Assembly: GCA_021324265.1 (NCBI GenBank)
Contig: JAJPJK010000001.1
Location: 1 to 64,000 of the forward strand
Reading direction: 5' to 3'
Source: Thermoproteota archaeon
GTDB taxonomy: Archaea; Thermoproteota; Thermoprotei; Gearchaeales; Gearchaeaceae
Length of the DNA: 64,000 nucleotides
Part shown: one piece after another, positions 11,594-60,805 of the stretch
Numbering within the stretch: position 1 is the first letter of the stretch
Layout: each line of letters opens with the position of its first letter
Notes under the pieces: model-generated
Seen by the model: the letters and a program-made list of their open reading frames with translations, nothing else
Database searches by the model: none
What the model was told of the DNA's origin: nothing
Made by a program: the position numbers and the translations under genes

Positions 11594-11620
11594 GATTTAT
11601 ATACTAGATTTATATACTAG
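11594..11620 (+). promoter_or_regulatory. Tandemly duplicated TATA box upstream of the surface-protein genes
   Basis: GATTTATATACTA occurs twice in a row (11594-11606 and 11607-11619), so there are two TTTATATAC boxes 13 bp apart. The upstream box is centred about 28 bases before the ATG at 11628, the normal distance for a leaderless archaeal start. The second box is too close for that same start. Confidence 0.75.
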
Positions 11621-11627
11621 CTTTATT

Positions 11628-12233
11628 ATGGCTTTACAAAGGGTATCAAGGAGAGCAAAATGGTTATTAGCTATATTGGTGGTGGCGACATCTATTGCTA
11701 TAGTAAACGCTTCGGTTTTCGTGTTTTATCCCATTAACGTAAGTTTACAAGGTCAGGCGCCTCCTATAGTGTTTTCAACTGGTAAGAATGCAAACCAAGC
11801 AGATCTTTGGGGTAACACGATCGGTGTAACCTTAGATTCGACAAATACTACGTTGACTTTAACTTTGCACCCAACATGGCGCACTAATTTATACAAGAAC
11901 ATATCTCTGATCGTGAACTTAGATACTACTAGAACATACTACATTAAATTCAACGTCACTTCTCCATTCACTAATGCAAAAATAACCAGTGCAATTTTAT
12001 ACATTAAGAATTTAGCTGGAACTACAACATATGGGACTGTTAATCTCCTTACAAGTGGTCTTCAACCTAATTCATGGATATCTATTTCCAATAATCCTTC
12101 CAAGCTCAGGCTAGATTTAATAGTTATCTATACACCTGCAAATACTGATACACCAAATAGCGCAGCACCTAACGATAGTTGTACGATACAGCTAGTATAC
12201 AGTCCGCAGAACGCAGAGAATCCATCTCCATAA
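11628..12233 (+). CDS. Secreted beta-rich surface protein 1 (candidate filament subunit)
   Basis: A 201-residue exported protein. A basic N-terminus and hydrophobic helix (~10-31) are followed by VSLQGQAPPIVF and then a Thr/Asn-rich beta-strand domain. The domain is paralogous to the protein at 13728: both have a DLWG segment, a TLHPT / TVHPT strand, an N-LDTTRTYYIKFNV / N-LDAITHYIAFNI strand and a later LQPNSWISI / FRPSNNIANWISL turn. No named family is certain. The shape (signal, short strand, one small beta domain) resembles donor-strand filament subunits such as TasA-like archaeal pilins or Sulfolobales threads, which is inference. It is first in a three-gene run. Confidence 0.65.
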   Translation: MALQRVSRRAKWLLAILVVATSIAIVNASVFVFYPINVSLQGQAPPIVFSTGKNANQADLWGNTIGVTLDSTNTTLTLTLHPTWRTNLYKNISLIVNLDTTRTYYIKFNVTSPFTNAKITSAILYIKNLAGTTTYGTVNLLTSGLQPNSWISISNNPSKLRLDLIVIYTPANTDTPNSAAPNDSCTIQLVYSPQNAENPSP

Positions 12234-12236
12234 TTT

Positions 12237-13697
12237 GTGAAAAAATATATAGCTATTTTTTTAATTTCCTTTTTAATCTTCCTTCCTCAGCTTCATGCTT
12301 CACGTTTTACGCTTGATACTATTAGCGCAAGCCTAGTTGGCCAGGCTCCGCCTGTTACGCTAAATCAGCCCGCTTATACCTACACATGTCTATATTTAAG
12401 CAGGACTTCTAGGGCAGCATTAACTTATCAAGACTTTGAGGGTACTTCATTACCTTCAAATTGGGCTAGCATAGGCAGTACGTGGAGTATGATTCCTGGG
12501 GGAGGATATAAAGGAGGTGCATTGCAAGGCACTGATAATGGTGGGGGTATTGGAGGAAGTACCGAGTTCTATTGGAATACTCAAGTATCCTTTACCTCCG
12601 GATCTTCTTACAATATAACAGCCAAAGTGAAAATATCAGCGGTACCTTCAAATAGTATTGTGTATGCAGGAATTGCTATAATTCGTAACCCAACCAATAT
12701 GCTTTATGAGATTTCGATATCCTCTAATAATAGATTTAACATACGCTTATTTTCACCAAGTCCTACAACCTTAGTTTTCGCTCAAGTAACAATAACACTC
12801 AATACTTGGTACATAATTTATGTATCCATAACAAGGACTACTACAAACATAATCAATGCATACTTATACGATGTAAACGGCAATCTTTTAGCTAATATTA
12901 GTGCAACAAATAACAACTTTAATCCAAATAGTGGATTTTTTGGTGTCGATGTAGATACAAGAGGCAGTGCTACTAATAATGGAGTTGCTCGCTTTGATGA
13001 TTTCTTAGCTGGAAATGGAGATTTAAGGTTCATTAGAATAAATAATCTTCAATCCGGAATGCAAGCGCAGATCATCGATAACCTAGGAAATCTAGTCGCT
13101 TCTGGAAGCGCTACCACTTCCAACCTTGCCTTGAATGTTTTAAGTGATGTCGTTGTTGGGACGGGCACCGATGGTCGCATTATCTTGAAATATCCAAGTG
13201 GGCAAAACTGTCTCATATATAACAATCCTACTAGCAACGCAATCCTAGGCGGAGATACGTATACTTTAATTACAGCGACGATGACAATAGCTATTGATAG
13301 CACCAAAACACTGGCAAATAATACTTTTTATATTTCTCCCAGTAACGCAAACATAACGCAAACTATTGCTATAGTTATCTCTATTGTGGATTCCCGAACA
13401 TATTACGCTTTACTGAACTTAACATCTTCTTCTTCGCTAGCCAGTGGCTTATATGCGAATATCACGCTTTCAGGTTCTTCAAATAGCACTAGCATTGTAA
13501 TCACAAATAGCGTTGTTAGCACTAGTATAACGAGTGAAGTCTCGATTTCAGGCTCCAATAACTACATACTCATCAGCGCTTATTATACAACGGCAGCCAA
13601 GACTTCAACGCTTAACTTAATGCTCCAGTATTGTACCGTAGCTAACGGCAATGGGGCATGTGTTCTTTATCCTATAAATTTAATCATAAAATCATAA
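12237..13697 (+). CDS. Secreted surface protein 2 with concanavalin/laminin G-like domain
   Basis: A 486-residue exported protein starting at GTG 12237, three bases after the previous stop. It has a signal peptide (~3-21) and then ASLVGQAPPVTL, matching the same post-signal strand in protein 1. Residues ~62-260 look like a concanavalin-A/laminin G-type sandwich (DFEGTSLPSNWASIGSTW at one end, VARFDDFLAGNG at the other). A short beta module (~262-335) follows. The C-terminal domain (~340-486) is similar in style to proteins 1 and 3 (TMTIAIDSTKTLANNTFYIS, SRTYYALLNLTSS). It may be a tip or adhesive component of an assembly built from its small neighbours (inference). Confidence 0.65.
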   Translation: MKKYIAIFLISFLIFLPQLHASRFTLDTISASLVGQAPPVTLNQPAYTYTCLYLSRTSRAALTYQDFEGTSLPSNWASIGSTWSMIPGGGYKGGALQGTDNGGGIGGSTEFYWNTQVSFTSGSSYNITAKVKISAVPSNSIVYAGIAIIRNPTNMLYEISISSNNRFNIRLFSPSPTTLVFAQVTITLNTWYIIYVSITRTTTNIINAYLYDVNGNLLANISATNNNFNPNSGFFGVDVDTRGSATNNGVARFDDFLAGNGDLRFIRINNLQSGMQAQIIDNLGNLVASGSATTSNLALNVLSDVVVGTGTDGRIILKYPSGQNCLIYNNPTSNAILGGDTYTLITATMTIAIDSTKTLANNTFYISPSNANITQTIAIVISIVDSRTYYALLNLTSSSSLASGLYANITLSGSSNSTSIVITNSVVSTSITSEVSISGSNNYILISAYYTTAAKTSTLNLMLQYCTVANGNGACVLYPINLIIKS

Positions 13698-13727
13698 AAA
13701 CACGCAAGAGGTATAAAATATAGAGAA

Positions 13728-14273
13728 ATGTCATTCTCTAAAAAGAATTGGTTATTTTTGTTTTTAATTGTAGCATTAATTAATTCTGTATTTAACGCTA
13801 TTACACCTCTATCTTATGCTCAGAATAAAGGAGAACTTGTAATCTTTCATGTACCATCTAATATCGTAAGCTCAGATTTATGGGGTGCAATTGTTTCAAT
13901 TTCGATTTTCCAAAATACCAGTGCAACTATAACAGTCCATCCAACATATGGTACTAACTATTACAGTGATGTCCTTTTGATTACCAATCTCGACGCGATC
14001 ACGCATTATATTGCTTTCAATATAACAGATCCTTTAGCGATGAATGTATTTTCTAGTGCTGAATTGTACTTAAGGAATCCCGCTAATGGAGAATTGGTTG
14101 CTAAGATAGATATCGGGTCTACTGGATTTAGACCAAGTAATAATATAGCGAATTGGATATCATTGGGAAGTAATTCTTCATTGATGGTCGATTTGGTCAT
14201 CTCAATTAAGGCTTCCAGTAATACTCAAAAGTTCTTTTTTGAAAATTTGACGCTTTATCTAGTATACATGTGA
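13728..14273 (+). CDS. Secreted beta-rich surface protein 3, paralogue of protein 1
   Basis: A 181-residue exported protein with a hydrophobic N-terminal segment (~8-30) and a beta domain paralogous to that of the 11628 gene (see shared DLWG, HPTYGTNYY and NWISL positions). It lacks the GQAPP segment but has FHVPSNIVSSDLWG at the corresponding place. It lies 30 bp after surface protein 2, with GAGGT 15 bases before the ATG. It is probably cotranscribed with the other two and likely part of the same surface structure. Confidence 0.6.
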   Translation: MSFSKKNWLFLFLIVALINSVFNAITPLSYAQNKGELVIFHVPSNIVSSDLWGAIVSISIFQNTSATITVHPTYGTNYYSDVLLITNLDAITHYIAFNITDPLAMNVFSSAELYLRNPANGELVAKIDIGSTGFRPSNNIANWISLGSNSSLMVDLVISIKASSNTQKFFFENLTLYLVYM

Positions 14274-16888: not shown

Positions 16889-17803
16889 CTATTGAGCTCT
16901 TCGTCTATATCTTTTTTCAATTACTGCACCGTAAATGGTCTCTATGCCGAATTCTTTTGCTTTTTCCAATGCTTCGATGTCTATGTTCACTGCGATGAAT
17001 ATCAGCCTTGAAGCTTTTCTATTTATTATCTTTTCAACTATTTTAGCCTTCTGTATAAAATTATATATATCTTCTTCTCTGCAATGTGCAGTTACTTCTA
17101 TGAAATAAATATCTTTATTATGTACATATATATCTATTTCGATCTTCACTCCTTTTGGAACATACTTTCCCTCCTTATCTTTATAGGTGAACTTTTCGAT
17201 TTTTTCTGCCTTAATGCCTTCTTTTTCAAGGATGTCTTCATAAATTTTTAATATTGTTCTTTCTAGATCAATTCCCCATCTTTCTCCTATGGAACCCATA
17301 ACCACTCTTAGCGACGTAATTTCCTTCCAAGTCATGTTCAGGCTTTCCCATATTTTGTTCTGTCCTTCTCTAAGCGCTCTAATTTCTTCCCATACTTTGT
17401 TAAGATTCTCCCATATTTTTGCCTGTTCTTCTTTTATTCCCTTTATCTCATTCCATATTAAATTCAAATTCTCCCATATTTTCGCTTGCTCAACTTTTAT
17501 CGCTTTAATTTCATTCCATATTAAATTCAAATTCTCCCATATTTTCGCTTGCTCAACTTTTATCGCTTTTACTTCCTCCCATAGCCTGTTCTGATTTTCC
17601 CACAATTTATTCTGATTTTCCCATAGTTTCATTTGATCCTCTCTTATACCTCTTACTTCCTCCCATAGTTTGACTTGGTTTTGTTCAAGCTTATCTAGTC
17701 TGTTGAGAATATCGGATAATCCTAAATAGCCAGCTATTGCATAGCGGAATTCTGTATCTTTGCCGAGTAAGCTCAATATTTCTTTTTTTAACTTTGTGCT
17801 CAC
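16889..17803 (-). CDS. Coiled-coil protein with PD-(D/E)XK nuclease-like C-terminus (paralogue A)
   Basis: A 304-residue protein with a GTG start. Residues 1-40 form a small conserved module (KDTEFRYAIAGYLGLSDILN) shared with the genes at 34807 and 59918. A long coiled coil follows (~40-165), made of repeated units such as VEQAKIWENLNLIWNEIKAI. The C-terminal domain (~175-295) has IEIDIYVHNKDIYFIEVTAH, the core of a PD-(D/E)XK fold (Glu222, Asp224, Glu236); the usual Lys is Thr238. Family resemblance is to DUF3782-like archaeal proteins; function is unknown. A TTTAAAT box lies at about 17826-17836. Confidence 0.7.
   Translation of the reverse strand: MSTKLKKEILSLLGKDTEFRYAIAGYLGLSDILNRLDKLEQNQVKLWEEVRGIREDQMKLWENQNKLWENQNRLWEEVKAIKVEQAKIWENLNLIWNEIKAIKVEQAKIWENLNLIWNEIKGIKEEQAKIWENLNKVWEEIRALREGQNKIWESLNMTWKEITSLRVVMGSIGERWGIDLERTILKIYEDILEKEGIKAEKIEKFTYKDKEGKYVPKGVKIEIDIYVHNKDIYFIEVTAHCREEDIYNFIQKAKIVEKIINRKASRLIFIAVNIDIEALEKAKEFGIETIYGAVIEKRYRRRAQ
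17448..17569. repeat. Tandem 63-bp in-frame DNA repeat inside coiled-coil gene A
   Basis: The 59 bases at 17448-17506 recur identically at 17511-17569, a period of 63 bp or 21 residues (three heptads). A more diverged copy lies just before. Identity at third codon positions shows recent duplication, not selection on protein sequence. Confidence 0.85.
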
Positions 17804-34806: not shown

Positions 34807-35595
34807 GTGAGCATGAATGTAAGCAAGGAGGATCTAAAGAAGATATTATTAGACATGCTTCTAACTGATTCTGAGTTCAGATATGCTGTTGGGGGCGCTA
34901 TAGGATACAAAGAGATTCTTGACAGAATAGTAAAGTTGGAAAAAAGAACAGCAAAGTTGGAACAAATGATAGCAGAAAATCAAGCAAGAAATGAAGAACG
35001 TTTCCTAAAGTTGGAACAAATGATAGCAGAAAATCAAGCAAGAAATGAAGAACGTTTCCTAAAGTTGGAACAAATGATAGCAGAAAATCAAGCAAGAAAT
35101 GAAGCGAGATTCTTAAAGGTAGAGGAGGAGATTAAGTCTCTGAGGGAGGACTACAAATTGTTAAGGAAAGATATGCAAGAAGGATTCAAGAGACAAGATA
35201 GAAGGCTCAGATACATAGAGTCTTTCATAGAGAATCTCTCACTTAGCGTAGAGGAAGAAGCAAGGGAAGTTGTAGAGTACTGGTTGAAACAAAAAGGCAT
35301 ATCCGTAAAGATAAAAGGTCTAGTTTTGCCAGAAGTTGAAATTGATCTATATGCAACTGATAACAACATATGCTTTATAGGGGAGGCAAAAACGAAAGCA
35401 GCAAGAAAGGCAATTATGAAGGTCGAAAACGATATAAAAAGACTCCAAAGAAAATATCCTTCTTATCTAAGGGAGAAGATAGTCAAAATAGTTTATGCAA
35501 TACAGGCCATGCCCGATGCTGTGGAAGAAGCAAGGAAAAGGGGCATATGGCTAGTAACAGCTAAAGGAGAGCTCACTGAGTTGAAGATAAGTTAA
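34807..35595 (+). CDS. Coiled-coil protein with PD-(D/E)XK nuclease-like C-terminus (paralogue B)
   Basis: A 262-residue protein starting at GTG 34807 (or ATG 34813). The head module (TDSEFRYAVGGAIGYKEILD, 20-39) is shared with paralogues at 16889 and 59918. The coil (~43-135) contains three 18-residue units KLEQMIAENQARNEERFL. The C-terminal domain begins LSVEEEAREVVEYWLKQKG and has a complete PD-(D/E)XK core: VEIDLY (Asp180) and GEAKTKA (Glu193, Lys195), then WLVTAKGELTEL. Nuclease activity is plausible but unproven. A CTATATATATG box lies at about 34774-34784. Confidence 0.72.
   Translation: MSMNVSKEDLKKILLDMLLTDSEFRYAVGGAIGYKEILDRIVKLEKRTAKLEQMIAENQARNEERFLKLEQMIAENQARNEERFLKLEQMIAENQARNEARFLKVEEEIKSLREDYKLLRKDMQEGFKRQDRRLRYIESFIENLSLSVEEEAREVVEYWLKQKGISVKIKGLVLPEVEIDLYATDNNICFIGEAKTKAARKAIMKVENDIKRLQRKYPSYLREKIVKIVYAIQAMPDAVEEARKRGIWLVTAKGELTELKIS
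34953..35104. repeat. Tandem 54-bp in-frame DNA repeat inside coiled-coil gene B
   Basis: Units at 34953-35006 and 35007-35060 are identical; the third, from 35061, stays identical to about 35104. The 54-bp unit encodes 18 residues, which is not a heptad multiple but equals a heptad plus a hendecad (7+11). Confidence 0.88.
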
Positions 35596-42498: not shown

Positions 42499-45400
42499 TT
42501 ATTTCTTAATAATTTTAGATCTAATTAAAATAATTATAGTTACAGCAAGAGCCAATGTGATTATTGCTATGATTAATATGTTAGTATAATTATAGTCATA
42601 TTTTGTTTGGAGTGTCAATGGTCCGCTAGCCTTTACTTGGACAACGTTGGAATTTGAATTTACCGAACCTGACCAGCCACTAAATGTATATAAGAAAGAT
42701 GATGGGTTCGCTGTCAACGTTATCGTAGTGTTCTGAGGCACGAAAATATCTATGCTTTCGCCAGGGCTTATGCTACCGCTCGTATTGTTATAGCTGTACT
42801 GTATCGTTACTCCATTGGAGTTATGGATGGAAACATCTACATAGAAAACTGCAGTTTCGACAACACTTCCTTTTACTTCAAGATCCAATTCTTTTTCTAC
42901 TCCACTATAGGAGCCTGTTCCGTTACCTATCCATTTTTCGAATTTCCATCCTGTATTCTCAGTGGGTACTATTTTTAAAACACTTGTAGCATTGTACCAT
43001 CCGCTGTTGAAATTCAGACTTCCACCTTGAGGAGGAGATATCATTAATTCTATGAAATATTGATGATAATATGTTATCGTAGTATTTAACGGAGATGTTA
43101 ATTCTATCTGCAAAGGACCGTTTGTTATCCATCTTTCGTTTTGAATGTTAAATGAAATTATTGATTGGTATGAAATCGTTGAGTTAGCATCAATCCAAGC
43201 AGATAATGGCAAAGTCTTGTTGAAGAGCTGCCCTGTGCTGAAATAATTAACCCAAGGCGAGATCTGTCCTCCACCTGCTATATTTAAGTTTAAATTGACT
43301 AGGAACTGGATCCAATAAATCAGCTTAGAGCTTATACTTCCATTTACCGTTATATTTGTAGAGTTCGTTGAATAAAGTCTTTCATTGCTAGATATCATAA
43401 TTGGATTTGTAACGTTGAGCAGCGACATTGAGTCGACCCAGCCGTTGAAGGGTAATGTGTTTTGTGTTTCATTTCCTCCATAAAAATAGGAAACAGAAGG
43501 AGAAATAGAGTTTTCTCCATTAACTAATTGATACGATAAACTAACATAGAACTGTCTATAATAAATGAGATCCAATGATTCTGGTTTTTCAATTAAATAG
43601 TTTGTTTGAAAAGTAATCCATCTTTCGTTATTGTTCGAGGGATTCAATATGCTTTGTATCTCTAATGTGCTGTTAATATCTATCCAAATATTTGGCGTTA
43701 GTGTGTTGTTTTGAAGACTTCCGAACTGGTAGTAAGCTAACCATGGATTATCAGGGTTTCCTCCTCCAATAATTTTAAAATCTAAGTTGATAAGAACTTG
43801 GAGGTAATAAACAATGTTAATGTTTTTGCTACTCATTATTGTGGCAGTTGTTGCATTACCGCTCATCCACCGTTCAGTAGCATTTGAGTTAATTAAAGGA
43901 TTATCCATGCTCCACACAGATTTTGAATCCACCCAATCACTAAGGGGCGCTTTGTCCACTTTTTTTAAACCAAAACTATAATAGGTAACATTAGGCGTAA
44001 TGTAGCTCCCGATTCCTATGACTTTGAAGCTGAAGTTAATGAAGAATTGATGATAATAAATGATCGTTACGCTTATTGGGCCCTGAATATTACCATTCGT
44101 CGTATTTTCTGTAATCCATCTCTCTGAAGTGCTAGAATTCTTGAGGAGTTTCTGAACAGACCAAGCAGTGCCAGCATCTGCCCAGTCGTATGTAGGCATA
44201 ATCACAGAAAACTCTTTAGAGAATTTCGTATAGTTTATGCTTGGAGGGATTGTATTAGAGTTATCTGAGATCTTGTATGTAAAGGCAATACTATACTGTT
44301 GAAAATATAAAAAGTTTAGTACAGCGTTAGAGCTCGCTATACCACTTGTTTGATTTCCAGTTGCCCATCTCATACTTTGCGTTGAGCCAGCTAGTATGCT
44401 TGTTATATTCCAGCGTGTGTTCATATCGACAGAATATTGAGTCGGCGTTGTGCTTAACGTGGCTGTTTGCTTTTGGCCATTTAATATATAAGAAAAAACT
44501 GGCGGAGAATACCCTGCATTTCCTATGACAGAATAACTTAATGTCATCGTTACCTTTTGAGTCGTTGGGGTAGTTATAGATACCTCACCTATATATGTTC
44601 CCCAATCGTTATAGCTAGGCATATATTGACCTGCAACCCATACCTTAGTGGGATCCTGTGGATCAGTAGCAGCTCCAAAGTAGTCTCCATATCTTCCTCT
44701 GGTCTCTACACTGGCCCCAGTCTTTAATGTTACAGGTGATAGCCAATGGCTCAAGTTATTATTCAATAAGGTTGTAACATTAATGCTTGGGTAATCTGAA
44801 GGAGAGGAATAGCCATAAACGATTATTACATTGTTGTTCTGATCCAAGCTTAGAGCGGGATAAAATAGGTATTTTCCTACTTGAGATATTGTTGTATTGG
44901 CTATTAGCGTATAATTTTTCGTATTTATAGAAAATACTCTTATACAATCTCTGTTGTATGAATCACCTTGAGGTATGCAACTTGTTTCAGTCGCAAACCA
45001 TAACATGTTTTGTTTCCATACAGGATTAGAACTTATTCTTGCATCATTGGGATTTATTGTCGCATTAGTGTTAGGTTGAGGCGCACCAAAAGGTTGGTAT
45101 ATGGGGGATATAGATAAATCTGTCTCGTTTATGACAACATTATTTTGTGTAGGATTTCCCGTTACAGCGAAGATCATTATTGGAGGATTATAATTGTTGT
45201 AGGACCCCCAATCATCACTCGCCATATAAAGAGTTGTTGTATTCGTCAAGGAAACAACAGGTTTAAAATTGAAATATGTACATATATAATAGTTATTAAT
45301 CATACAATTGTAATTCACAGTATATAATGCCAGTGGACTTGAATTACTTATAAGTTGGTATTTATCGAATATCCAAATCCTTACATGATCAGAAATATAT

Positions 45401-46134
45401 GATGACGTGCAATTTGGGTAAACATTGGCAGTTAAAGCAACTTTATCGCTGCTAAACCCTATCGAATCAAAATCTGGGCAATAACCTTGTTCTTGATTCA
45501 ATGTATAGATCCACCAAGCTCCTGTAGGATCGCTTGTCTTTGAGACTGCTAGCTTAACTATTCCAGTATTGAAGTCAATAGCTGATATAAACCATCTTTG
45601 GCTTTGCCAGTCGTATAGAACACGTGGATCTCCAACGTTATCATTAATAGGAAAATTGAATAAGTCGTTTAATATTTGGGGTTTTATGAGATTCCCTAAT
45701 TTATCAAATACACCAATTTCTGTATTTACGGCTTCTACTATATAATTTGATCCTGCTGCTAAATTAACATCTGAAGGATAACCGTTGTCATACAACCCAT
45801 ATTTTTCTTGAATACCTCCGAACGAATTCACTAAGGTGATCTGAGGTGTAAGCAGAGGTTCTTGATTTGGGCTGTATGTAGCTGTTTGTTTAGTGATGGA
45901 TAAATATTTGCCAGATATCTTGTTTGCTGTTCCTTGTGTTGAGGATAATATAGAATGATAGGGTCTTGCAAAAGACCTTATACTAGCTTGTGTGTTTACA
46001 GGTATGAGGAGTTGGTGTGAAGACTTCAAATAATTGTTGGGCTGATAGCTTGTTTGCATCACTTGACCGCTTGGAATGAAATATACGATAACAGTAGCTA
46101 AAAGGAAGGCTAGAAGAATTTTTTTCATGCTCAA
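42499..46134 (-). CDS. Large secreted, membrane-anchored repeat protein (propeller, thermopsin-like repeats, InlB-like module)
   Basis: A 1211-residue surface protein. It has a signal peptide (~4-25) and a beta-rich region (~95-530) that looks like a propeller (for example DPRVLYDWQSQRWFISAIDF). Six ~80-residue repeats follow (~540-1015), each with a strand like YYHQFFINFSFKVIG, a Tyr-rich strand, a W-x-D turn and ERW. These resemble the repeats after the catalytic domain of thermopsin-type proteins. A divergent InlB-type module comes next (GWKFEKWIGNGTGSYSG), then a C-terminal helix (~1183-1203) and a basic tail. No protease motif was found. The protein is probably exposed on the cell surface. 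Confidence 0.72.
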   Translation of the reverse strand: MSMKKILLAFLLATVIVYFIPSGQVMQTSYQPNNYLKSSHQLLIPVNTQASIRSFARPYHSILSSTQGTANKISGKYLSITKQTATYSPNQEPLLTPQITLVNSFGGIQEKYGLYDNGYPSDVNLAAGSNYIVEAVNTEIGVFDKLGNLIKPQILNDLFNFPINDNVGDPRVLYDWQSQRWFISAIDFNTGIVKLAVSKTSDPTGAWWIYTLNQEQGYCPDFDSIGFSSDKVALTANVYPNCTSSYISDHVRIWIFDKYQLISNSSPLALYTVNYNCMINNYYICTYFNFKPVVSLTNTTTLYMASDDWGSYNNYNPPIMIFAVTGNPTQNNVVINETDLSISPIYQPFGAPQPNTNATINPNDARISSNPVWKQNMLWFATETSCIPQGDSYNRDCIRVFSINTKNYTLIANTTISQVGKYLFYPALSLDQNNNVIIVYGYSSPSDYPSINVTTLLNNNLSHWLSPVTLKTGASVETRGRYGDYFGAATDPQDPTKVWVAGQYMPSYNDWGTYIGEVSITTPTTQKVTMTLSYSVIGNAGYSPPVFSYILNGQKQTATLSTTPTQYSVDMNTRWNITSILAGSTQSMRWATGNQTSGIASSNAVLNFLYFQQYSIAFTYKISDNSNTIPPSINYTKFSKEFSVIMPTYDWADAGTAWSVQKLLKNSSTSERWITENTTNGNIQGPISVTIIYYHQFFINFSFKVIGIGSYITPNVTYYSFGLKKVDKAPLSDWVDSKSVWSMDNPLINSNATERWMSGNATTATIMSSKNINIVYYLQVLINLDFKIIGGGNPDNPWLAYYQFGSLQNNTLTPNIWIDINSTLEIQSILNPSNNNERWITFQTNYLIEKPESLDLIYYRQFYVSLSYQLVNGENSISPSVSYFYGGNETQNTLPFNGWVDSMSLLNVTNPIMISSNERLYSTNSTNITVNGSISSKLIYWIQFLVNLNLNIAGGGQISPWVNYFSTGQLFNKTLPLSAWIDANSTISYQSIISFNIQNERWITNGPLQIELTSPLNTTITYYHQYFIELMISPPQGGSLNFNSGWYNATSVLKIVPTENTGWKFEKWIGNGTGSYSGVEKELDLEVKGSVVETAVFYVDVSIHNSNGVTIQYSYNNTSGSISPGESIDIFVPQNTTITLTANPSSFLYTFSGWSGSVNSNSNVVQVKASGPLTLQTKYDYNYTNILIIAIITLALAVTIIILIRSKIIKK

Positions 46135-46291: not shown

Positions 46292-47497
46292 ATGAATTAT
46301 AAAATATCTGCAATGGTTTTGCTTCTTGTTATTTCTGCTGGAATTTCAAGCACGTATATAGTATATGGAACAATTCTAGACAACATATACGCTAGCCCAC
46401 AACTGCATTCAGTCAAACCTACAAGCTCTACTCCAATAGGCTATAGTCCTGTCCAAATAAGGCATGCGTATGGCTTTGATCTGTTAAGTTGTAGCTTCAC
46501 TGGCACATTTGGAAGTTCTAACCTTTGTGGGTACGGGCAAATAATAGCGATTGTGGATGCTTATGATGATCCTAATATAGAAAATGATTTGAACGTATTC
46601 AGTAGTCAATTTGGCCTTCCTTCATGCACTAGCTCAAATGGTTGCTTCATTAAGGCAATGCCTCAAGGTAAACCTAGAGCAGATCAAGGATGGGCTCTCG
46701 AAATATCTTTAGATGTTGAATGGGCTCATGCTATTGCCCCAGGCGCTAAGATTCTCTTAGTTGAAGCCAAGTCCAATAGTTTGAGCAATTTATTGGCCGC
46801 CGTCGATTATGCAGTTAGCCAAGGAGCCAAGGTTGTTTCAATGAGCTGGGGCGGATCTGAATTTTCAAGCGAAAGCTCCTATGACTATCATTTCAATGTT
46901 GCAGGCGTTAGCTTCTTCGCAAGTTCAGGCGATAGTGGTCATGGCGTTATTTGGCCTGCAGCTTCTCCCTATGTAATTGGTGTAGGAGGCACGACACTAA
47001 ATTTAGATGCTCAGGGAAATGTTCTTAGCGAAACTGCATGGAGCGGCAGTGGAGGAGGTATTAGCGCATATGAAAAAGAACCTTCTTATCAAGTTAATTA
47101 TGGAATAAGCAGTAATGGTATGCGAGCTGTTCCTGATGTTGCATATGATGCTGATCCAAATACAGGATTCGCAGTTTACGATAGCTATGGCTATCAAGGA
47201 CAAAAAGGCTGGTTTGAAGTAGGCGGCACCAGTGCAGGTGCTCCTCAATGGGCAGCACTCACAGCAATTGTAGATAGTGGAAGGAGTACGCCAATATCTG
47301 CAAGCAATTTCGGTTCAGGAACTGAAATATATTTAGCTGCAACAGGTTCTGTCTATAGCACCAATTTTAGAGACATAACTTCTGGCACAAATGGGAATTG
47401 TGGTTCTGTATGTACTGCAAGTTCAGGTTATGATTTCGTCACAGGATTGGGGAGTCCACAAGCAAACAACCTAATACCTTATTTACAAACACATTAA
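46292..47497 (+). CDS. S53 family peptidase (sedolisin/kumamolisin type), without large propeptide
   Basis: An exported acid serine-carboxyl peptidase of 401 residues. After a signal peptide (~5-27) the mature-like sequence begins within about 25 residues (YSPVQIRHAYGFD), whereas typical sedolisins have a ~190-residue propeptide. Catalytic residues are visible: Glu137 and Asp141 in WALEISLDVEWAHAIAPGAK, Asp214 in FASSGDSGHG, and Ser314 in GGTSAGAPQWAAL. The C-terminal calcium-site region has FRDIT and GYDFVTGLGSP. Several Cys pairs are present. It probably digests protein outside the cell at low pH and may feed the oligopeptide importer (inference). Confidence 0.88.
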   Translation: MNYKISAMVLLLVISAGISSTYIVYGTILDNIYASPQLHSVKPTSSTPIGYSPVQIRHAYGFDLLSCSFTGTFGSSNLCGYGQIIAIVDAYDDPNIENDLNVFSSQFGLPSCTSSNGCFIKAMPQGKPRADQGWALEISLDVEWAHAIAPGAKILLVEAKSNSLSNLLAAVDYAVSQGAKVVSMSWGGSEFSSESSYDYHFNVAGVSFFASSGDSGHGVIWPAASPYVIGVGGTTLNLDAQGNVLSETAWSGSGGGISAYEKEPSYQVNYGISSNGMRAVPDVAYDADPNTGFAVYDSYGYQGQKGWFEVGGTSAGAPQWAALTAIVDSGRSTPISASNFGSGTEIYLAATGSVYSTNFRDITSGTNGNCGSVCTASSGYDFVTGLGSPQANNLIPYLQTH

Positions 47498-48158: not shown

Positions 48159-48224
48159 TTTTATTGATTTATCGTGCTATGACGCAGCGCAAAATTTTTG
48201 CTTGCGTTCATAAAGCCTATTACC

Positions 48225-51200
48225 ATGTCGCTTCTCATTAAATCTCTGGCTATAGTATTCCTAGTTTTGCTTACAATGAACATGTATACCAGCATTGCCA
48301 AGGCTGAAGTAAATCCTTATCAAGATCTCTTTAATTGGCTGATCCAAAATCTCGATATAACTGCTTTCTTTGTTTATAGAGGGCCGCTTTACCCCGTAAT
48401 AGGCGAATACCATGAACCTACAGTTACATTTGCACAGAAAAATTTGGATACAAACCAAGTCACTGAATACTCTATGCCCTACTCAAAGTTCATCAAGGAG
48501 TATGTATTACAGAATAAGGCAAATGTGACGATGAAAGCATACTACTTTGGTTTCAATCGTAGTGGCCCTATTCCTTTCTATTTCCCCTCCTTCAACTTTA
48601 CAGGATCGGTAGCCCCATCTTATGAGCTTTATTACGGCGGTGCTTACATACCTCAAAACTGGCCTTCCTATTCTTCTTCTTTTTCTGAAGGTGATGTAAC
48701 AATAAATTACTGGAAATACAATGTAGCTGAGCCTATTTTCTTGAAAAATCCTGAGTATCTATATTCATATGTTAGATTGAGTAATGGTTCTAGTCTCACG
48801 ATTCCTAAGGGAGAAGATGTCATCCTTGCTCTTACAGTCAAGAACAGTGATATATTAAGTGTTCTTGGTAGTGTTCTAGGCAATAAGCAAGAGGTGCCAT
48901 ATCCCGATTCTTTACAAAAAATACTTCAGAGATTGCCGCAAGATGATATGTTCGCAACAAGCTTCGATATAGAATGGGTCACAACTGGAAAAGTTGGTTA
49001 TTTCAAGCAAGCTATGGTTAACCAGTACAACACTACGTATCCTTGTGGTTTCGATTTAGGCTTATCTATACTCGGCGTAGGCACTGGTGATGGAAGTCCT
49101 AAAGGTTTGCAGAATGCGATTCGACAAGGAATAGAGGAAAACAAGAAGAAATTATCGATGGAGGAAGGTTATGTGTATAATTGTCCAATCTTATTTAGCC
49201 TTTTCAGCCCAGTAGGATCTCCCGCTTATAACTATACAACAAACATTGATATTTCAACAAGCTTAGGAGGTCTTCTAAGCTCTAGTTCAATTTTCTACAT
49301 AATTAAACCCAGCGCTTATCAAGGTCAGGATACTATTACGTTAACACTGAAGGATGCCAGAGATTCGATGAAAACAAGCTTTACTATAAACGTGAACGTA
49401 GGAAAAGAAAGATTTTCCGACCTAGATCTTAATTATTATGACTATGAAACTGAACAAAGACAAACCCCGCCTGATGAATATGGATTGACGATAGATGAGA
49501 AGTATTATGCTAGGCTTAATCAAAGCCTTCAAGGATATGATGAGGATGGTTCAGCAATATATCAGCTAGATTTTAAAGCTTTTCGAACACAATATGCGCC
49601 TTTTCCGAATTATGAACCAGGGGGAGCATCTTTCTACATGTACGAAGATTATAATGCTTCAATAAAGCTCAAATTGGGCGGGTGGTTACCTAATCCTATG
49701 CCTCCTGGCTTTCAGCTTATCGGTGATATTACTGAATCTAATTCTAAAGCCACAGGTTCAGGGTACGAAATACAGCGGCTTTATTCAGATGCGGGAATAT
49801 TCAAAGCAGATTGTGAACGCAGTACTGTGAAGGACAATAATGGTAATCCTTTATATGATTATGTTTCTTGTAACGAGTCGACATCGCATCTTTTCACTTT
49901 GACCTTTGACCTTGTTGGGCAAGAGTATTTGATGAATGTTAAGAGAGGTTCAGGAGCCAGCAAACTTACGCTAATGGGCGATCATCTCAAGCTTATATTA
50001 CCATCGTTTGAAAATGTTTACTATTATTACACTAGCTTATCTTATAAAGAAATGCACACAGTTACCGAGATATACAAACCATTTTATCTTTGTAATTATC
50101 AAACTTCTAATTGTAGCTATGCAAATGTGCTCATATTCAGTGCCGCCTATCAATATATAGTTCCAGTACCTGATCCATTGCATATCATCACCTTTTACTA
50201 TGCAGGGTCTCAAAACATATTTGAGCTTTATAAGAAGGGTTCTGAAACTGTTTCTCCTCAAGGTGAAGTTAAATCATTGTTTATACTTACAGACAAGAAC
50301 TACGTTTTGCCATCTGATGATCTAGGTATTGTAATTAACAGCTATGGATCAGGCTCTGCGAATTCAAATGTGAATCTGAAGTTTACTTTGTTGTTAGGGA
50401 ATAAAACTCTAGCATTGTCTTCAAAAAGTGTTAGAACCAATGAAGCTGGTACTGCTAGTATAAACTTGAAGCTACCTTCTTTCTCCGAGCTAAATAATTA
50501 TTTTGGAAATCTCAGTAACTATGGCGATAGAGGATTATTATTAATTAATGCGACGGATTCTAGAGGCATTTCAGCATTAACAACGCTCATTTTCTACATA
50601 TCCGGTACCATCGTAGAATTGAAGCCTATTGATCTCGTCCTACCAATTCCTGACGATCCTTGGAAGCAAAATGTTTTAGGAAGCGTAAAAGATGGCTATT
50701 TTTCTAATAAGTTAGAAAAACCGCTTTCTGGGGATTTCAAATTATACCTACGCATTAAGGAAAAAGATACTGGGAATATTGTAAAATACCTAGAATTGGA
50801 AAGTGGTTCATATGTTGCTACAGCAGATGAGCTAAATCTAACAAGCGGAAAGACCTATATCATAGCTGGTGAACTGCTATATCAAGACCCAGAATATTAT
50901 AATTGGCATAGTCTTAAAATAGACGATTTCGGAATAGATCTCGTAATCCCAGAGAACAATCAACAAGGCATTAAGAGAGTCGTTTTGAAGATTTATGTTC
51001 CTTATTCGCTTATAATTCAGTATTATAAGCTCGCATCTGCTCTTGGAGGTCAAGATGATAGGTTCTATAAACTATTGGCAGATCAGGCAATATTGAATAT
51101 ATTCTTTGAATTGGTCAAAAAGATCTCAACTGGCATAGGAAATGCGATAGGAACTCCTGAGGAGAACAACGTAGCAGCTTCCATTACTGGTGCATTACTA

Positions 51201-54035
51201 AACTTTTACAATACAACAATAGCTCATCTTAGACCACTTGTAGCTCTTCCTGACCCCTCCAACTTGCCGAGCGGTTATCAAACTGAACTCGACTTCCTTA
51301 ATCTACCCATTAATTACAGAGATCCTGCCTACAACTTTTCCAGCGACGCCCTATATTATGGCACAAACAACTACTGGAGCAAATTGGCCAAACTTGTTAT
51401 CTTACAAGCAGAGTTGCTCAGAACTTACAAATATGTCATGAATTCTGCGATCGTCATTTCTAAGCTACTAGCACTTGCTATTACACTTGAAATATTCAAG
51501 GGCTATTTCGATACCAAGAAGTTTTTCAACAAAAAGAACATATTTGCAGAGTTTGCTAAGAAATACGGCAATAAAATTTCTGGTCCACTTGCTCAGTATC
51601 TTGGTGCAGCGAAGATATCGTTATTAGAATTAGTGGGCTTTTTAACCTCAACTACAAGCTTATTCGGTAATAATTTCATTTACAACACTTTTAAAAACTG
51701 GTTCAAGAACAGCGAAACTGCTTCAATAATGCTAGCTCTTACTTTCAAAATAATAAGATTCTTTTTCGTAGCTATCATAGGAAAGGCTGAACTATTTTCA
51801 GAGTTGAAGTTTGAGGTTATTTTCCAAGTAATTGCAACGCTAATTGCACATCTACTTATGCTCCTTTACAATGGATGGAATTCATATTTGCTCATCAATG
51901 AGATCATGGTCTATCCTTACATATCCATGTCCTTATTAGGCTTCTTAAAAATCTTCCCTGTATCAATTGATCAATATGGAAACATTTCCTTCAATTCCTT
52001 GTTAACGAGTATTACAATTGGCACGAAGCCCACTGATGAGCAATGGTCTTCAAGAAATGAAGAGCATGGCGCTATTGAAACTGCAGCGCTAGGAGCAGAT
52101 ATGGAAGCACAATTCTTCTCAGTTGCAGATGCTTATTCAAACATTGAAAATGCAGTCGGCATAGTTCTAGCATTAGTAAGAGCATTGGATGGAATATTTG
52201 AAAAACTGAAGAGAACGAAATTCGAGAATGCTCTTGCATGGTATAACAAGGAATTCCAGATAACATTTGGTGGAAAAAGCTATAATATAAATATTAAGAA
52301 TCTAGTTTCCCAGCTATATCTATCCTTGGTTGCAGCGATTTTAACTGACGGCCTTATGAAAGGAATTTGGGGCTATGCAATAAAGAAGTTCATTACCGTA
52401 AACCAAGATATAGCAGCTACTTTGACGCTCGTAACTTCAACGATTGCGCCGCTTGTAGCAGCAGTGGTAACATTCTTTACACTTGGGAAAATAGTGAAAA
52501 CTCCAGCTATTAGTAAGCTTGGTTTCATAAAAGCTGCAAGCTATCAAGATAATGATGCTATAAGGATGGCATATCTTTCAAATGAGATAAATAGACTAAA
52601 ATTTGGCCTCAATGATATGATGGGTCAGAGTTCTTATCGCATTGATTTAATCCAGAATTTAGTCGCAGACATCGAAGAAGGAAGTGTTTTAGTACAAAGG
52701 GCAATCTTTAGATCCAGTGATGCAAACCTGACAAGTGAACTTATTGGAGTTCAATCTCAGATTTCTGCATCTGCAGGCTTTTTATATTCGACGCTAAGCT
52801 ACATTATAACGCATCCAAGCCTTAGGCCAACTGCAACGATCTTCTCAAATGTAAATGACTATTTAGACACAATATCGAGTAGTTTAAGCTATGCTGCAAA
52901 CTTAACCGATGCAGCTTATCAAGAATCTAAGCTAAGCACAACGTTAGGGCCTGCGATTTTTGTTAAGAACATATTCACTGAGAACTTCCCCGATACTGGA
53001 GAAATGAATGTCATTGTGTATAACTTAGGTGACAGTAGCGCGAGCGTTAAGCTAAGGCTTCTTGATAATGGGATTCTCAATAGCTATACAACAGATGCGA
53101 TTACGATAAATGCTAGGAGCTCACATATCTTTACTTTAAAGCCTACTATTGCGAATAATGCCAATAGCACTAGTGCTACGATCGTAGTTAATGTAAATGA
53201 TTTCGATGCTTATACTGTCGAGTTCGACATGCCTTTGGTTCAACAACAATTATATAGTGCAAGCAACGGGGGTGTGACAGCGATAAGCGATGGGCCTGTC
53301 TCGTTTGATGGATCGAAGATAAAAGTAAGCAATGCGAATACGCTCATAGTTTATGTTCCAAGCAGTGTAGCTCAGCCAAGGTTTGGTGCTACATTAGATG
53401 GTTATCTCATTCGCAGTGGGGAAGTTAAATTCGACGACTTCGCAATATTGGGCGTTTCCTTCAGTAATCCTGTCACAGGAACTATAGAATACAAAAGTCT
53501 TAAACAAAGCACTGAGTTTTTACAAGGAATGGGCTCGAAGACTACACAAAGTGGAGTAACCATAGAATCCAATGGAAACTTTTCGGCGCAAATAACGAAA
53601 TTCGATGAGAATCCATTCCCCGAAGCTTCGCTAAGCGGTGCAAATAATGTTAAGATAATAGCCATTGACCTTTTGGATGCCGGTGCAGGCTTCGTTACAG
53701 TAAAGATAAGTTTTTCAGATTTGGGCATAAGCGATCCTACACAACTTCACGTTTACAAATATAATGCAACCTTAGAGCGCTATCAAGAAGTCAGTAACTA
53801 CCAAGTGGATATGCAGAATAAGCTCGTAATATTCACTATGAAGCCTGGCGATCCTGTATTTGCTCTTACAAACGGTCAAATAACAGGAGGTAAAACAGCC
53901 CCAGGTCAAGTAGGTGGAGGTGGAATACAAATCTTCGGAGGTCTGAACTGGATACAGATAGCGATATATTCAGTTATTGCATTTGCGCTTTTAGTTGCGG
54001 CAATCTATGCAATAAGGAAAGTAAAGAAAAAATAA
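48225..54035 (+). CDS. Giant membrane-anchored extracellular protein (~1936 residues)
   Basis: No family is recognised. From ATG 48225 the protein opens with a signal peptide ending AKA; the same frame extends to a TTG at 48198. A large extracellular part follows (roughly the first 1000 residues) with Ig-like or carbohydrate-module-like strands. Several membrane-type segments lie at about 1075-1100, 1175-1235 and 1400-1435 (counted from 48198). A helical stretch follows, then a CARDB-like beta domain (~1590-1670, NVIVYNLGDSSASVKLRLLD). The end is a Gly-rich linker (GGGGIQIFGG), a membrane helix (~1918-1939) and RKVKKK. It may be an S-layer-associated or surface-assembly protein (inference). 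Confidence 0.65.
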   Translation: MSLLIKSLAIVFLVLLTMNMYTSIAKAEVNPYQDLFNWLIQNLDITAFFVYRGPLYPVIGEYHEPTVTFAQKNLDTNQVTEYSMPYSKFIKEYVLQNKANVTMKAYYFGFNRSGPIPFYFPSFNFTGSVAPSYELYYGGAYIPQNWPSYSSSFSEGDVTINYWKYNVAEPIFLKNPEYLYSYVRLSNGSSLTIPKGEDVILALTVKNSDILSVLGSVLGNKQEVPYPDSLQKILQRLPQDDMFATSFDIEWVTTGKVGYFKQAMVNQYNTTYPCGFDLGLSILGVGTGDGSPKGLQNAIRQGIEENKKKLSMEEGYVYNCPILFSLFSPVGSPAYNYTTNIDISTSLGGLLSSSSIFYIIKPSAYQGQDTITLTLKDARDSMKTSFTINVNVGKERFSDLDLNYYDYETEQRQTPPDEYGLTIDEKYYARLNQSLQGYDEDGSAIYQLDFKAFRTQYAPFPNYEPGGASFYMYEDYNASIKLKLGGWLPNPMPPGFQLIGDITESNSKATGSGYEIQRLYSDAGIFKADCERSTVKDNNGNPLYDYVSCNESTSHLFTLTFDLVGQEYLMNVKRGSGASKLTLMGDHLKLILPSFENVYYYYTSLSYKEMHTVTEIYKPFYLCNYQTSNCSYANVLIFSAAYQYIVPVPDPLHIITFYYAGSQNIFELYKKGSETVSPQGEVKSLFILTDKNYVLPSDDLGIVINSYGSGSANSNVNLKFTLLLGNKTLALSSKSVRTNEAGTASINLKLPSFSELNNYFGNLSNYGDRGLLLINATDSRGISALTTLIFYISGTIVELKPIDLVLPIPDDPWKQNVLGSVKDGYFSNKLEKPLSGDFKLYLRIKEKDTGNIVKYLELESGSYVATADELNLTSGKTYIIAGELLYQDPEYYNWHSLKIDDFGIDLVIPENNQQGIKRVVLKIYVPYSLIIQYYKLASALGGQDDRFYKLLADQAILNIFFELVKKISTGIGNAIGTPEENNVAASITGALLNFYNTTIAHLRPLVALPDPSNLPSGYQTELDFLNLPINYRDPAYNFSSDALYYGTNNYWSKLAKLVILQAELLRTYKYVMNSAIVISKLLALAITLEIFKGYFDTKKFFNKKNIFAEFAKKYGNKISGPLAQYLGAAKISLLELVGFLTSTTSLFGNNFIYNTFKNWFKNSETASIMLALTFKIIRFFFVAIIGKAELFSELKFEVIFQVIATLIAHLLMLLYNGWNSYLLINEIMVYPYISMSLLGFLKIFPVSIDQYGNISFNSLLTSITIGTKPTDEQWSSRNEEHGAIETAALGADMEAQFFSVADAYSNIENAVGIVLALVRALDGIFEKLKRTKFENALAWYNKEFQITFGGKSYNINIKNLVSQLYLSLVAAILTDGLMKGIWGYAIKKFITVNQDIAATLTLVTSTIAPLVAAVVTFFTLGKIVKTPAISKLGFIKAASYQDNDAIRMAYLSNEINRLKFGLNDMMGQSSYRIDLIQNLVADIEEGSVLVQRAIFRSSDANLTSELIGVQSQISASAGFLYSTLSYIITHPSLRPTATIFSNVNDYLDTISSSLSYAANLTDAAYQESKLSTTLGPAIFVKNIFTENFPDTGEMNVIVYNLGDSSASVKLRLLDNGILNSYTTDAITINARSSHIFTLKPTIANNANSTSATIVVNVNDFDAYTVEFDMPLVQQQLYSASNGGVTAISDGPVSFDGSKIKVSNANTLIVYVPSSVAQPRFGATLDGYLIRSGEVKFDDFAILGVSFSNPVTGTIEYKSLKQSTEFLQGMGSKTTQSGVTIESNGNFSAQITKFDENPFPEASLSGANNVKIIAIDLLDAGAGFVTVKISFSDLGISDPTQLHVYKYNATLERYQEVSNYQVDMQNKLVIFTMKPGDPVFALTNGQITGGKTAPGQVGGGGIQIFGGLNWIQIAIYSVIAFALLVAAIYAIRKVKKK

Positions 54036-59081: not shown

Positions 59082-59921
59082 ATGAAAGGTAAGACAATAT
59101 TAATAACTGGCGCTAACTCGGGAATAGGTAAGGAAGCAGCAAAGGAGCTCGCGAAAATGGGAGCAAACTTAGTAATCGTTTGTAGAAATAAAGAAAGAGG
59201 GGAAAAGGCAGTGAAGGAGATAAAAAGTTATAGTGCCAATGAAGCCGTTGAACTTTATGTCTGCGATCTTTCTAAACAAACTGAGATTAGGGATTTCGCA
59301 AGAGCTTTTAGCTCAGAACATTCGAGGCTTGATGTGCTTATAAATAACGCAGGCACAGTATACATGAGCTATGGAGAAACGGAGGAAGGAATAGAAAGGA
59401 CGATGGCAGTTAATTATTTTGCACCTTTTCTCCTTACGAATTTATTGCTTGATATGCTTATTAAAAGCGCACCTTCAAGGATCATAAACGTTGCATCTGA
59501 TGCCCATTTCAGTGGCCACATCGATCTCACAGACATAAATAGCAAAAAGAACTGGAATCCTTGGAGGGCCTATGCGAATTCAAAGCTTGCACTCGTCCTC
59601 TTCACTTATGAGCTTGCAAGGAGATTGAAGGATAAAGGCGTTACAGTGAATTGCTTGCATCCAGGAGCTGTTAGGACGAATATATGGACACATACTGGTA
59701 TTTTGCGACCGTTTATGATGTTCGCTTCTCTGTTCATGAAGAGTCCAAGGAAAGGTGCTGAAACAATTATATATCTTGCATCATCTCAAGAAGTTGAGCA
59801 TGTCACAGGGAAGTACTTTGTAAACAATAAAGCAAGGCCATCATCGAAAGAAAGCTATGATAGCGATCTCGCGATTAAATTATGGCAACTAAGCATGGAG
59901 TTGACGAAATTGTCTGTTTAG
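59082..59921 (+). CDS. Short-chain dehydrogenase/reductase (retinol dehydrogenase-like, NADP type)
   Basis: A 279-residue SDR. TGANSGIG (~8-15) is the cofactor loop and an Arg at the end of the second strand (VCRNKERG) favours NADP. NNAG lies near position 85; the active-site Ser is in NVASDAH, and Tyr/Lys in AYANSKLALVLF. NCLHPGAVRTNIW is typical of the retinol dehydrogenase/WWOX-like branch. I start at ATG 59082 because the upstream frame would need TTG 59058. It closely follows the dehydrogenase gene, and its stop overlaps the convergent coiled-coil gene by four bases. Confidence 0.85.
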   Translation: MKGKTILITGANSGIGKEAAKELAKMGANLVIVCRNKERGEKAVKEIKSYSANEAVELYVCDLSKQTEIRDFARAFSSEHSRLDVLINNAGTVYMSYGETEEGIERTMAVNYFAPFLLTNLLLDMLIKSAPSRIINVASDAHFSGHIDLTDINSKKNWNPWRAYANSKLALVLFTYELARRLKDKGVTVNCLHPGAVRTNIWTHTGILRPFMMFASLFMKSPRKGAETIIYLASSQEVEHVTGKYFVNNKARPSSKESYDSDLAIKLWQLSMELTKLSV

Positions 59922-60805
59922 GATAGCCTCAACTCGGTCAATTCTTTCGTAGCTGTTACAAGCCAAATATTGCGCTTTTCTGCTTCTTTTATTGCTTCAG
60001 GAAGAGCTTGCATTGTATATATAACCTTTATTATTTTCTTTTTTAAATATTGTGGATACTTTGTTTGCAATATACTAATATCGTTGTCTATACTTTCTAT
60101 AAGCTTTTGGCTTGCTCTAGTTTTAACTTCACCAAAAATGGTAATATCTTCATTTGTTCCATATATATCGATCTCCAGTTCAGGAAGACTCAGAGGCATC
60201 AGGCTTATATTCAATCCTTTCTCTTTCAATCTATAAGACAAGACTTCTCTTGCTTCTTCTTCTAGCGTTAAAGATGTTCTCTCGATATATGCCTCTATAG
60301 CCCTCAGTCTTTTGTCCATAAGTTCGAATCCTCTCTGCATATCTTTTCTGAGTTCGTATACTTCTTTAGCAAGTCTATTGTGGTCTTCCCTTAAGTTCTT
60401 TGTTTCTTCTCTTAAACTTCTTGTTTCCTCCCAAAGCTTTTTAATTTCCTCCTTTAATAGATAAATTTCCTGCCACATTTTTTTGGTTTCTTCTCTTAAA
60501 CTTCTTGTTTCCTCCCAAAGCTTTTTAATTTCCTCCTTAAGCAAATGAATTTCTTCCCATATTTTCTTTGTTTCTTCTCTTAAACTTCTTGTTTCCTCCC
60601 AAAGCTTTTTAATTTCTTCTTTTAGGAAATAAATCTCTTCCCATATTTTCTTTGTTTCTTCTCTTAGAGCTTTTATCTCATCTTCAATTTTGGTAGTCCT
60701 ATCGAGTAATTCCTTGTAACCTATAAGACCTGCAACAGCATGTCTGAATACTGTATCCTTTTCAAGTATATTGAGAAATGTCTTCTTTAGCTCTTCCTCT
60801 TGCAC
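59918..60805 (-). CDS. Coiled-coil protein with PD-(D/E)XK nuclease-like C-terminus (paralogue C)
   Basis: A 295-residue protein with a GTG start. The head module (KDTVFRHAVAGLIGYKELLD, ~16-35) is shared with the paralogues at 16889 and 34807. The coil (~40-160) is built from 28-residue units (four heptads) around EEIKKLWEETRSLREETKK. The C-terminal domain starts LEEEAREVLSYRLKEKGLNI and has a complete PD-(D/E)XK core: EIDIYG (Asp213) and GEVKTRA (Glu226, Lys228), then WLVTATKELTEL. Activity is unproven. The last ~120 residues align with paralogue B almost without gaps. Confidence 0.72.
   Translation of the reverse strand: MQEEELKKTFLNILEKDTVFRHAVAGLIGYKELLDRTTKIEDEIKALREETKKIWEEIYFLKEEIKKLWEETRSLREETKKIWEEIHLLKEEIKKLWEETRSLREETKKMWQEIYLLKEEIKKLWEETRSLREETKNLREDHNRLAKEVYELRKDMQRGFELMDKRLRAIEAYIERTSLTLEEEAREVLSYRLKEKGLNISLMPLSLPELEIDIYGTNEDITIFGEVKTRASQKLIESIDNDISILQTKYPQYLKKKIIKVIYTMQALPEAIKEAEKRNIWLVTATKELTELRLS
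60402..60670. repeat. 84-bp period in-frame DNA repeat inside coiled-coil gene C
   Basis: Units start at 60402, 60486 and 60570, with a partial fourth at 60654. The first two share 53 identical bases, the third shares 48 of them. The 84-bp period equals 28 residues, or four heptads. Confidence 0.85.

Follow-up and report, generated by a model that had tools for sequence, protein, structure and literature searches.

A three-gene archaeal locus encoding a probable adhesive pilus assembled by donor-strand complementation

Three co-directional genes of the + strand occupy positions 11628-14273 of the window, the whole stretch of 64,000 nucleotides that was analysed, and encode the secreted beta-proteins P1, P2 and P3. 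The coordinates and the cluster proposed by the initial annotation are borne out. P1 and P2 are separated by 3 nt, P2 and P3 by 30 nt. The features of the locus are as follows:

11595..11620, + strand: tandem pair of TATA-box-like ATTTATATACTAG (11595-11607 and 11608-11620) directly upstream of P1, a probable promoter.
11628..12233, + strand: P1, candidate major pilin of 201 aa (match to 7pnb, match to SVF pilins, AF2 model with Foldseek); Sec signal peptide, residues 1-28; donor strand and PP turn, 29-49; beta-sandwich, 50-192.
11712..11774, + strand: codons of the P1 donor segment SVFVFYPINVSLQGQAPPIVF, aligned with the thread donor strand DVIYYYQGQITVGNVAPPMYF.
12237..13697, + strand: P2, candidate adhesive donor-strand subunit of 486 aa with a GTG start (full-length relatives, predicted fold); signal, residues 1-21; donor strand, 22-42; concanavalin-like lectin domain, 47-259; small beta-domain, 260-339; C-terminal P1-like domain, 340-486.
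12300..12362, + strand: codons of the P2 donor segment SRFTLDTISASLVGQAPPVTL (strand comparisons with P1 and across loci).
13728..14273, + strand: P3, a P1 paralogue of 181 aa without donor strand (33% identity to P1), which would probably end the chain.

The cluster is flanked by ordinary transport and metabolism genes, namely an oligopeptide ABC-transporter cluster on one side and a P5C-reductase-like gene on the other. Pfam and NCBIfam searches of P1-P3 returned only sub-threshold, chance-like matches. Neither a class III signal nor an assembly ATPase of type IV pili was found among the genes of the locus, in agreement with the initial annotation, and the three T2SSE-family ATPase matches in the genome all lie on other contigs. 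N-glycosylation sequons were dropped as evidence, their count not exceeding that of shuffled sequences. Elsewhere in the window we noted a secreted subtilase-family protease (46292-47497; Peptidase_S8, E 7e-12), perhaps a sedolisin by its residues, and two very large proteins that are secreted or lie in the membrane, one of 1211 aa with InlB-type repeats (42499-46134) and one of 1945 aa with no Pfam match (48198-54035). Three further proteins (16889-17803, 34807-35595 and 59918-60805) carry coiled heptad-like repeats in differing number ahead of a nuclease-like end; that at 16889-17803 matches DUF3782 and PDDEXK_10, and repeat number may vary.

When P1 was searched as a single sequence against all PDB sequences, the first match was Saci_0406, the thread subunit of Sulfolobus acidocaldarius (7pnb, E 0.0028), in an end-to-end alignment that takes in the donor strand and the APP turn. 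This phmmer match is weak taken alone. Profile tests were run since T/S/N-rich proteins such as P1 can mislead single-sequence searches. The P1/P3 profile aligned with that of Vulcanisaeta/Caldivirga threads (hhalign E 3e-7), and after removal of the signal peptides the same pair scored 31.1, whereas none of 60 column shuffles exceeded 18.4 and the reversed profile reached 18.9. We use SVF, after the mature N-terminus, as the name of the clade to which 18 P1-like pilins belong. Their profile, the SVF profile, matched only 7pnb (7e-6) and 8rzl in the PDB and did not match the bundling pilin AbpA (7ueg) at E<=1; the hhalign comparison of P1/P3 with the AbpA family was likewise not significant. 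The profile of all 20 superfamily members, AbpA-clade rows included, matched both 7ueg and Saci_0406. In addition, the similarity of the P1 donor segment to one Vulcanisaeta thread donor amounted to 9 SD.

The AlphaFold model of P1 (20-row alignment, mean pLDDT 76.7) consists of a signal helix and a ten-strand sandwich. A closed domain without an exposed N-terminal strand, which the initial annotation had named as evidence against a filament, was not seen: residues 30-46 are extended, unpaired and of low confidence (pLDDT about 47). In the structure search against thread and AbpA subunits that it had proposed, Foldseek ranked 7pnb first (2.7e-7) and 7ueg second (1.2e-4). The fold and sequence results are not independent, because the alignment behind the model contained threads and AbpA, favouring those folds. 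In P1 an exposed N-terminal strand comes after a Sec/SPI-type signal, as it does in P2 by sequence. P1 is a homologue of Saci_0406 by sequence, profile and fold.

In a midpoint-rooted tree of 60 pilins, P1 and P3 belong to the SVF clade (97/85). Next to it stands the thread clade (99/97), which holds Saci_0406 and the Vulcanisaeta/Acidianus threads, and AbpA groups separately with Thermofilales-type pilins (100/100). Because of this placement in a sister clade, P1 is a relative of threads and does not count as one in the strict sense. Its best SVF match is the pilin of locus L138 (42% identity over 194 aa, E 4e-39). At E<=1e-8 the SVF profile detects 41 of the 397 sampled genomes, a few of these detections being threads or Thermofilales-type pilins. 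SVF is a third branch of the thread/bundling-pilus superfamily of archaea and is widespread; it is not mentioned in the available portions of the thread papers (PMC9715654, PMC11607397) or of the TasA literature.

Similarity between P1 and P2 is limited to the signal/donor segment (...ASLxGQAPPV; E 8e-4), and their mature N-termini score 7.7 SD above shuffles. The post-signal GQAPP strand first noticed in the initial annotation is therefore indeed common to both proteins, and it is absent from P3; GQAPP is this genome's form of a family-wide motif, [x]PP[IV]x[FL]. Residues 47-259 of P2 were modelled as a beta-sandwich at pLDDT about 80-95, with legume lectins and CBM66 (4b1m, TM 0.71, 3.8 A) as the best PDB matches. 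Of the laminin G/concanavalin-like domain originally assigned here, the concanavalin-like part holds, whereas P2 gave no match to Pfam LamG. The alignment used for this fold excludes P1 and P3, which MAFFT had placed on the lectin domain. P2 has full-length relatives in the large proteins of L148 (37% identity, E 3e-52) and L138 (27% identity, E 1e-30). Similarity to the P1 core was found in the C-terminal domain of P2 (Smith-Waterman 5.7 SD, 0/500 shuffles), and the C-terminal third of the model is of low confidence (pLDDT 35-49). Should this be a pilin domain, the lectin part would lie between the first and second strand as an insertion.

The lectin-like domain of P2 also occurs in proteins beside or within type-IV-pilin-like clusters in genomes of family f5 (L022-L033), where one neighbour gave a weak Pilin_N match. 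The domain has therefore moved between unrelated pili and serves two pilus types. A match to the P2 strand in Pyrobaculum (L034) was discarded, the frame being full of stops.

Within loci, the pilin and the large protein have matching donor strands. Across 15 related loci that have both proteins, with the segments chosen by hand, the mean score was 58.5 within loci against 45.4 between them (SD 2.0), a value reached in 0 of 5000 permutations. A control pairing the pilin core with the last 150 residues of the large protein showed no such excess (367/5000). Relatedness alone would not predict an excess in the strands if the pilin and large-protein genes parted before the lineages did. An excess is what would be expected if both strands fit the same groove. 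The matched strands thus support a model in which P2 would plug into the same groove as P1.

The paralogy of P1 and P3 that had been proposed is confirmed by 33% identity over 187 columns (E 1e-25). Among 18 aligned family members, P3 alone has no donor segment and, for this reason, could act only as the acceptor of a strand; judging from its sequence, it would probably end the chain. The donor strand being missing nowhere else in the aligned family, together with a long branch (1.66) and a weakly supported pairing with P1 in the tree (49/63), could also point to a decaying P1 duplicate without a role. We regard such decay as rather unlikely, as P3 retains an open frame, a signal peptide, the pilin core HPTY..YY and the hydrophobic pattern, and its gene is co-directional and follows P2 closely.

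The tandem of a pilin and a large donor-strand protein, present here as P1-P2, is part of a larger conserved operon. We surveyed 29 SVF loci of the phylum, some of which were used to build the models and match them by construction. A signal-peptidase-like protein is encoded in 27 of them (one of the two exceptions lies at a contig end). Of the same 29 loci, 24 encode a multi-pass membrane protein of roughly 200 aa and 18 a lectin-type large protein (E<1e-15); another five (L142, L145, L151, L153, L156) have a donor strand that can be read on a different kind of large protein. Eight loci (L146, L161, L162, L163, L167, L168, L169, L170) encode the membrane protein and the large lectin-type protein as one fusion, with the junction just before the donor strand. 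Since all eight keep Ala at -1, the signal peptidase cut may persist in the fusions.

Genes for the signal-peptidase-like and multi-pass membrane proteins are absent from the P1-P3 locus. Two adjacent genes on another contig of this genome (C11; L175:7034-8432) are their homologues: one matches the signal-peptidase-like protein in its extracytoplasmic part only (E 1e-27) and has no catalytic part, and the other matches the membrane protein (E 5e-10 in a direct HMM search, 7e-15 with an enlarged model). A first search of the genome for the membrane partner had given nothing at E<=10, a false negative, and the gene was found by HMM search and reading of the neighbourhood. A general signal peptidase gene lies on contig C5. 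The pilin was not found in the same-family and same-order genomes examined, and a scan of genome contigs with P1/P3, in which this genome itself may be hidden, gave no confirmed locus. With a peptidase homologue that has no catalytic part and relatives without the pilin, the system is isolated in this genome and may be reduced. The three-gene set is therefore real as a cluster but not the whole set, and its composition looks new relative to the available literature on threads and TasA, although the pair of pilin and large donor-strand protein recurs in many genera.

Considering all the above results, we favour, with a probability of roughly 0.8, the hypothesis that these genes specify an adhesive pilus of archaea whose subunits are joined by donor-strand complementation. 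The homology to Saci_0406, the predicted fold and the operons conserved elsewhere support the kinship with threads and bundling pili that was suggested at the outset. P1 would be exported by Sec, its signal peptide being cut after VNA, and the freed N-terminal strand SVFVFYPINVSLQGQAPP would occupy the groove of the following P1, so that a bead-on-string fibre forms. P2, which has a strand of the same kind and a lectin-like domain, would plug one end of the P1 chain or nucleate it, and would add binding or anchoring. P3 would accept a P1 strand, give none, and close the other end. The homology of P1 and P3 to Saci_0406, the conserved operon, the lectin fold of P2, the matched strands and the lack of a strand in P3 are established by computation; polymerisation, its direction, the nature of the ends, adhesion and the ligand are what we infer beyond these. 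For a polymer held together by donor strands, their co-variation gives indirect support.

Other assignments deserve consideration. P2-type proteins may sit at the membrane or wall as cell-proximal anchors or nucleators that supply the first donor strand, with the lectin domain holding the cell's own S-layer glycans or lipid. In eight loci such proteins continue the multi-pass membrane protein at its C-terminus, which argues for this, as does TapA of B. subtilis, which nucleates and anchors fibres and has a TasA-like N-terminal donor strand, according to the available text of PMC9674648. However, the Ala before the donor strand in 8/8 fusions looks as if the cut were still made, and P2 is here a separate secreted protein without a membrane anchor. 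We consider the anchor a realistic possibility, somewhat short of even odds; given the eight fusions, a cell-proximal role of P2-type proteins is as possible as a role at the tip.

That P1-P3 form an S-layer or a non-fibrous coat, in which the shared N-terminal strand would join subunits into a sheet, is very improbable. Such a reading would suit secreted, beta-rich, abundant-looking proteins whose donor-type contacts could form sheets, but the nearest solved relatives (7pnb and 7ueg) are thin filaments, no S-layer family of Pfam or NCBIfam is matched, and S-layer proteins are usually much larger. We judge it highly improbable that the three proteins have nothing to do with filaments and are instead secreted carbohydrate-active enzymes or binding proteins, despite the resemblance of P2 to lectins and CBM66 and the sub-threshold Pfam matches of P1 to CBM96: no enzyme family is matched, the operon of pilin, signal-peptidase-like and membrane protein is conserved, and the donor strands co-vary. 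Assignment of P1-P3 to S-layers or enzymes was accordingly rejected for want of a matching family.

The candidate pilus shares with Sulfolobales threads (Saci_0406; 7pnb, 8rzl) a homologous subunit, a Sec/SPI signal, an N-terminal donor strand ending in APP, the fold and, reading from the sequence of L141, a large donor-strand-like protein adjoining the subunit gene (Saci_0404-type). It differs in its clade and its accessory genes; the thread membrane partners A7 and A8 had no match in this genome by a search tool that also missed the divergent C11 membrane gene. It also has no Asp24, the N-terminal isopeptide donor of the inter-subunit bond in threads, as the available text of PMC9715654 describes it: Ser29 of P1 aligns there, and Asn63 with Asn57. 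AbpA bundling pili (7ueg) belong to the same superfamily by profile search and fold, and their cluster holds a large protein with the same N-terminal strand (L086, weak), but they form their own clade, and the SVF profile misses 7ueg. The principle of donor strands, an adhesive end subunit and one strand-less subunit are common to chaperone-usher pili (FimA/FimH), in which FimH is the subunit without a donor strand. Here, by contrast, there is no chaperone, usher, outer membrane or sequence relation, the lectin protein P2 has the donor strand, and the strand-less P3 has no lectin domain. Closest in gene logic is tapA-sipW-tasA of Bacillus, where the available text of PMC9674648 describes a donor-strand fibre, a TapA partner with matching strand and the dedicated signal peptidase SipW alongside; likewise, SVF loci combine a fibre subunit, a matching-strand partner and a signal peptidase-like protein. 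Unlike the TasA system, this one has a lectin-bearing partner and a multi-pass membrane protein, with no catalytic signal peptidase at the locus, and no sequence match to TasA-system proteins was found for P1-P3.

In thread clusters of Vulcanisaeta/Caldivirga and S. acidocaldarius (L036, L070, L074, L077, L141) we noted a large secreted protein of about 440-520 aa with a thread-like strand at its start, smaller candidates taking its place in L084 and L085. This protein (Saci_0404-type in L141) is possibly an end subunit of threads, whose function is called elusive in the available text of the thread papers. The two latter Vulcanisaeta clusters also encode, beside the normal subunit, a second, larger one of 335-337 aa with an insertion of several cysteines (L084:4647-5654, L085:4265-5278).

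Tentatively, and close to an even bet, we propose that SVF loci encode a third, widespread and so far unrecognised archaeal donor-strand pilus, the counterpart in gene logic of tapA-sipW-tasA. Signal-peptidase-like and membrane proteins of its own would belong to it, and two subunits would define the ends of the fibre: one bearing a lectin domain and a donor strand that co-evolves and, in the present locus, a paralogue without a strand. The assembly pathway of threads is called unknown in the available part of PMC9715654. For the initiation, ending, processing and adhesiveness of archaeal threads and bundling pili, the SVF family suggests testable answers, namely a partner resembling signal peptidases, a membrane partner that in some loci is joined to the adhesive subunit, and end subunits that can be recognised by the presence or absence of a donor strand. 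The family also carries the range of donor-strand pili beyond Sulfolobaceae, Vulcanisaeta and Pyrobaculum into many further genera of the phylum.
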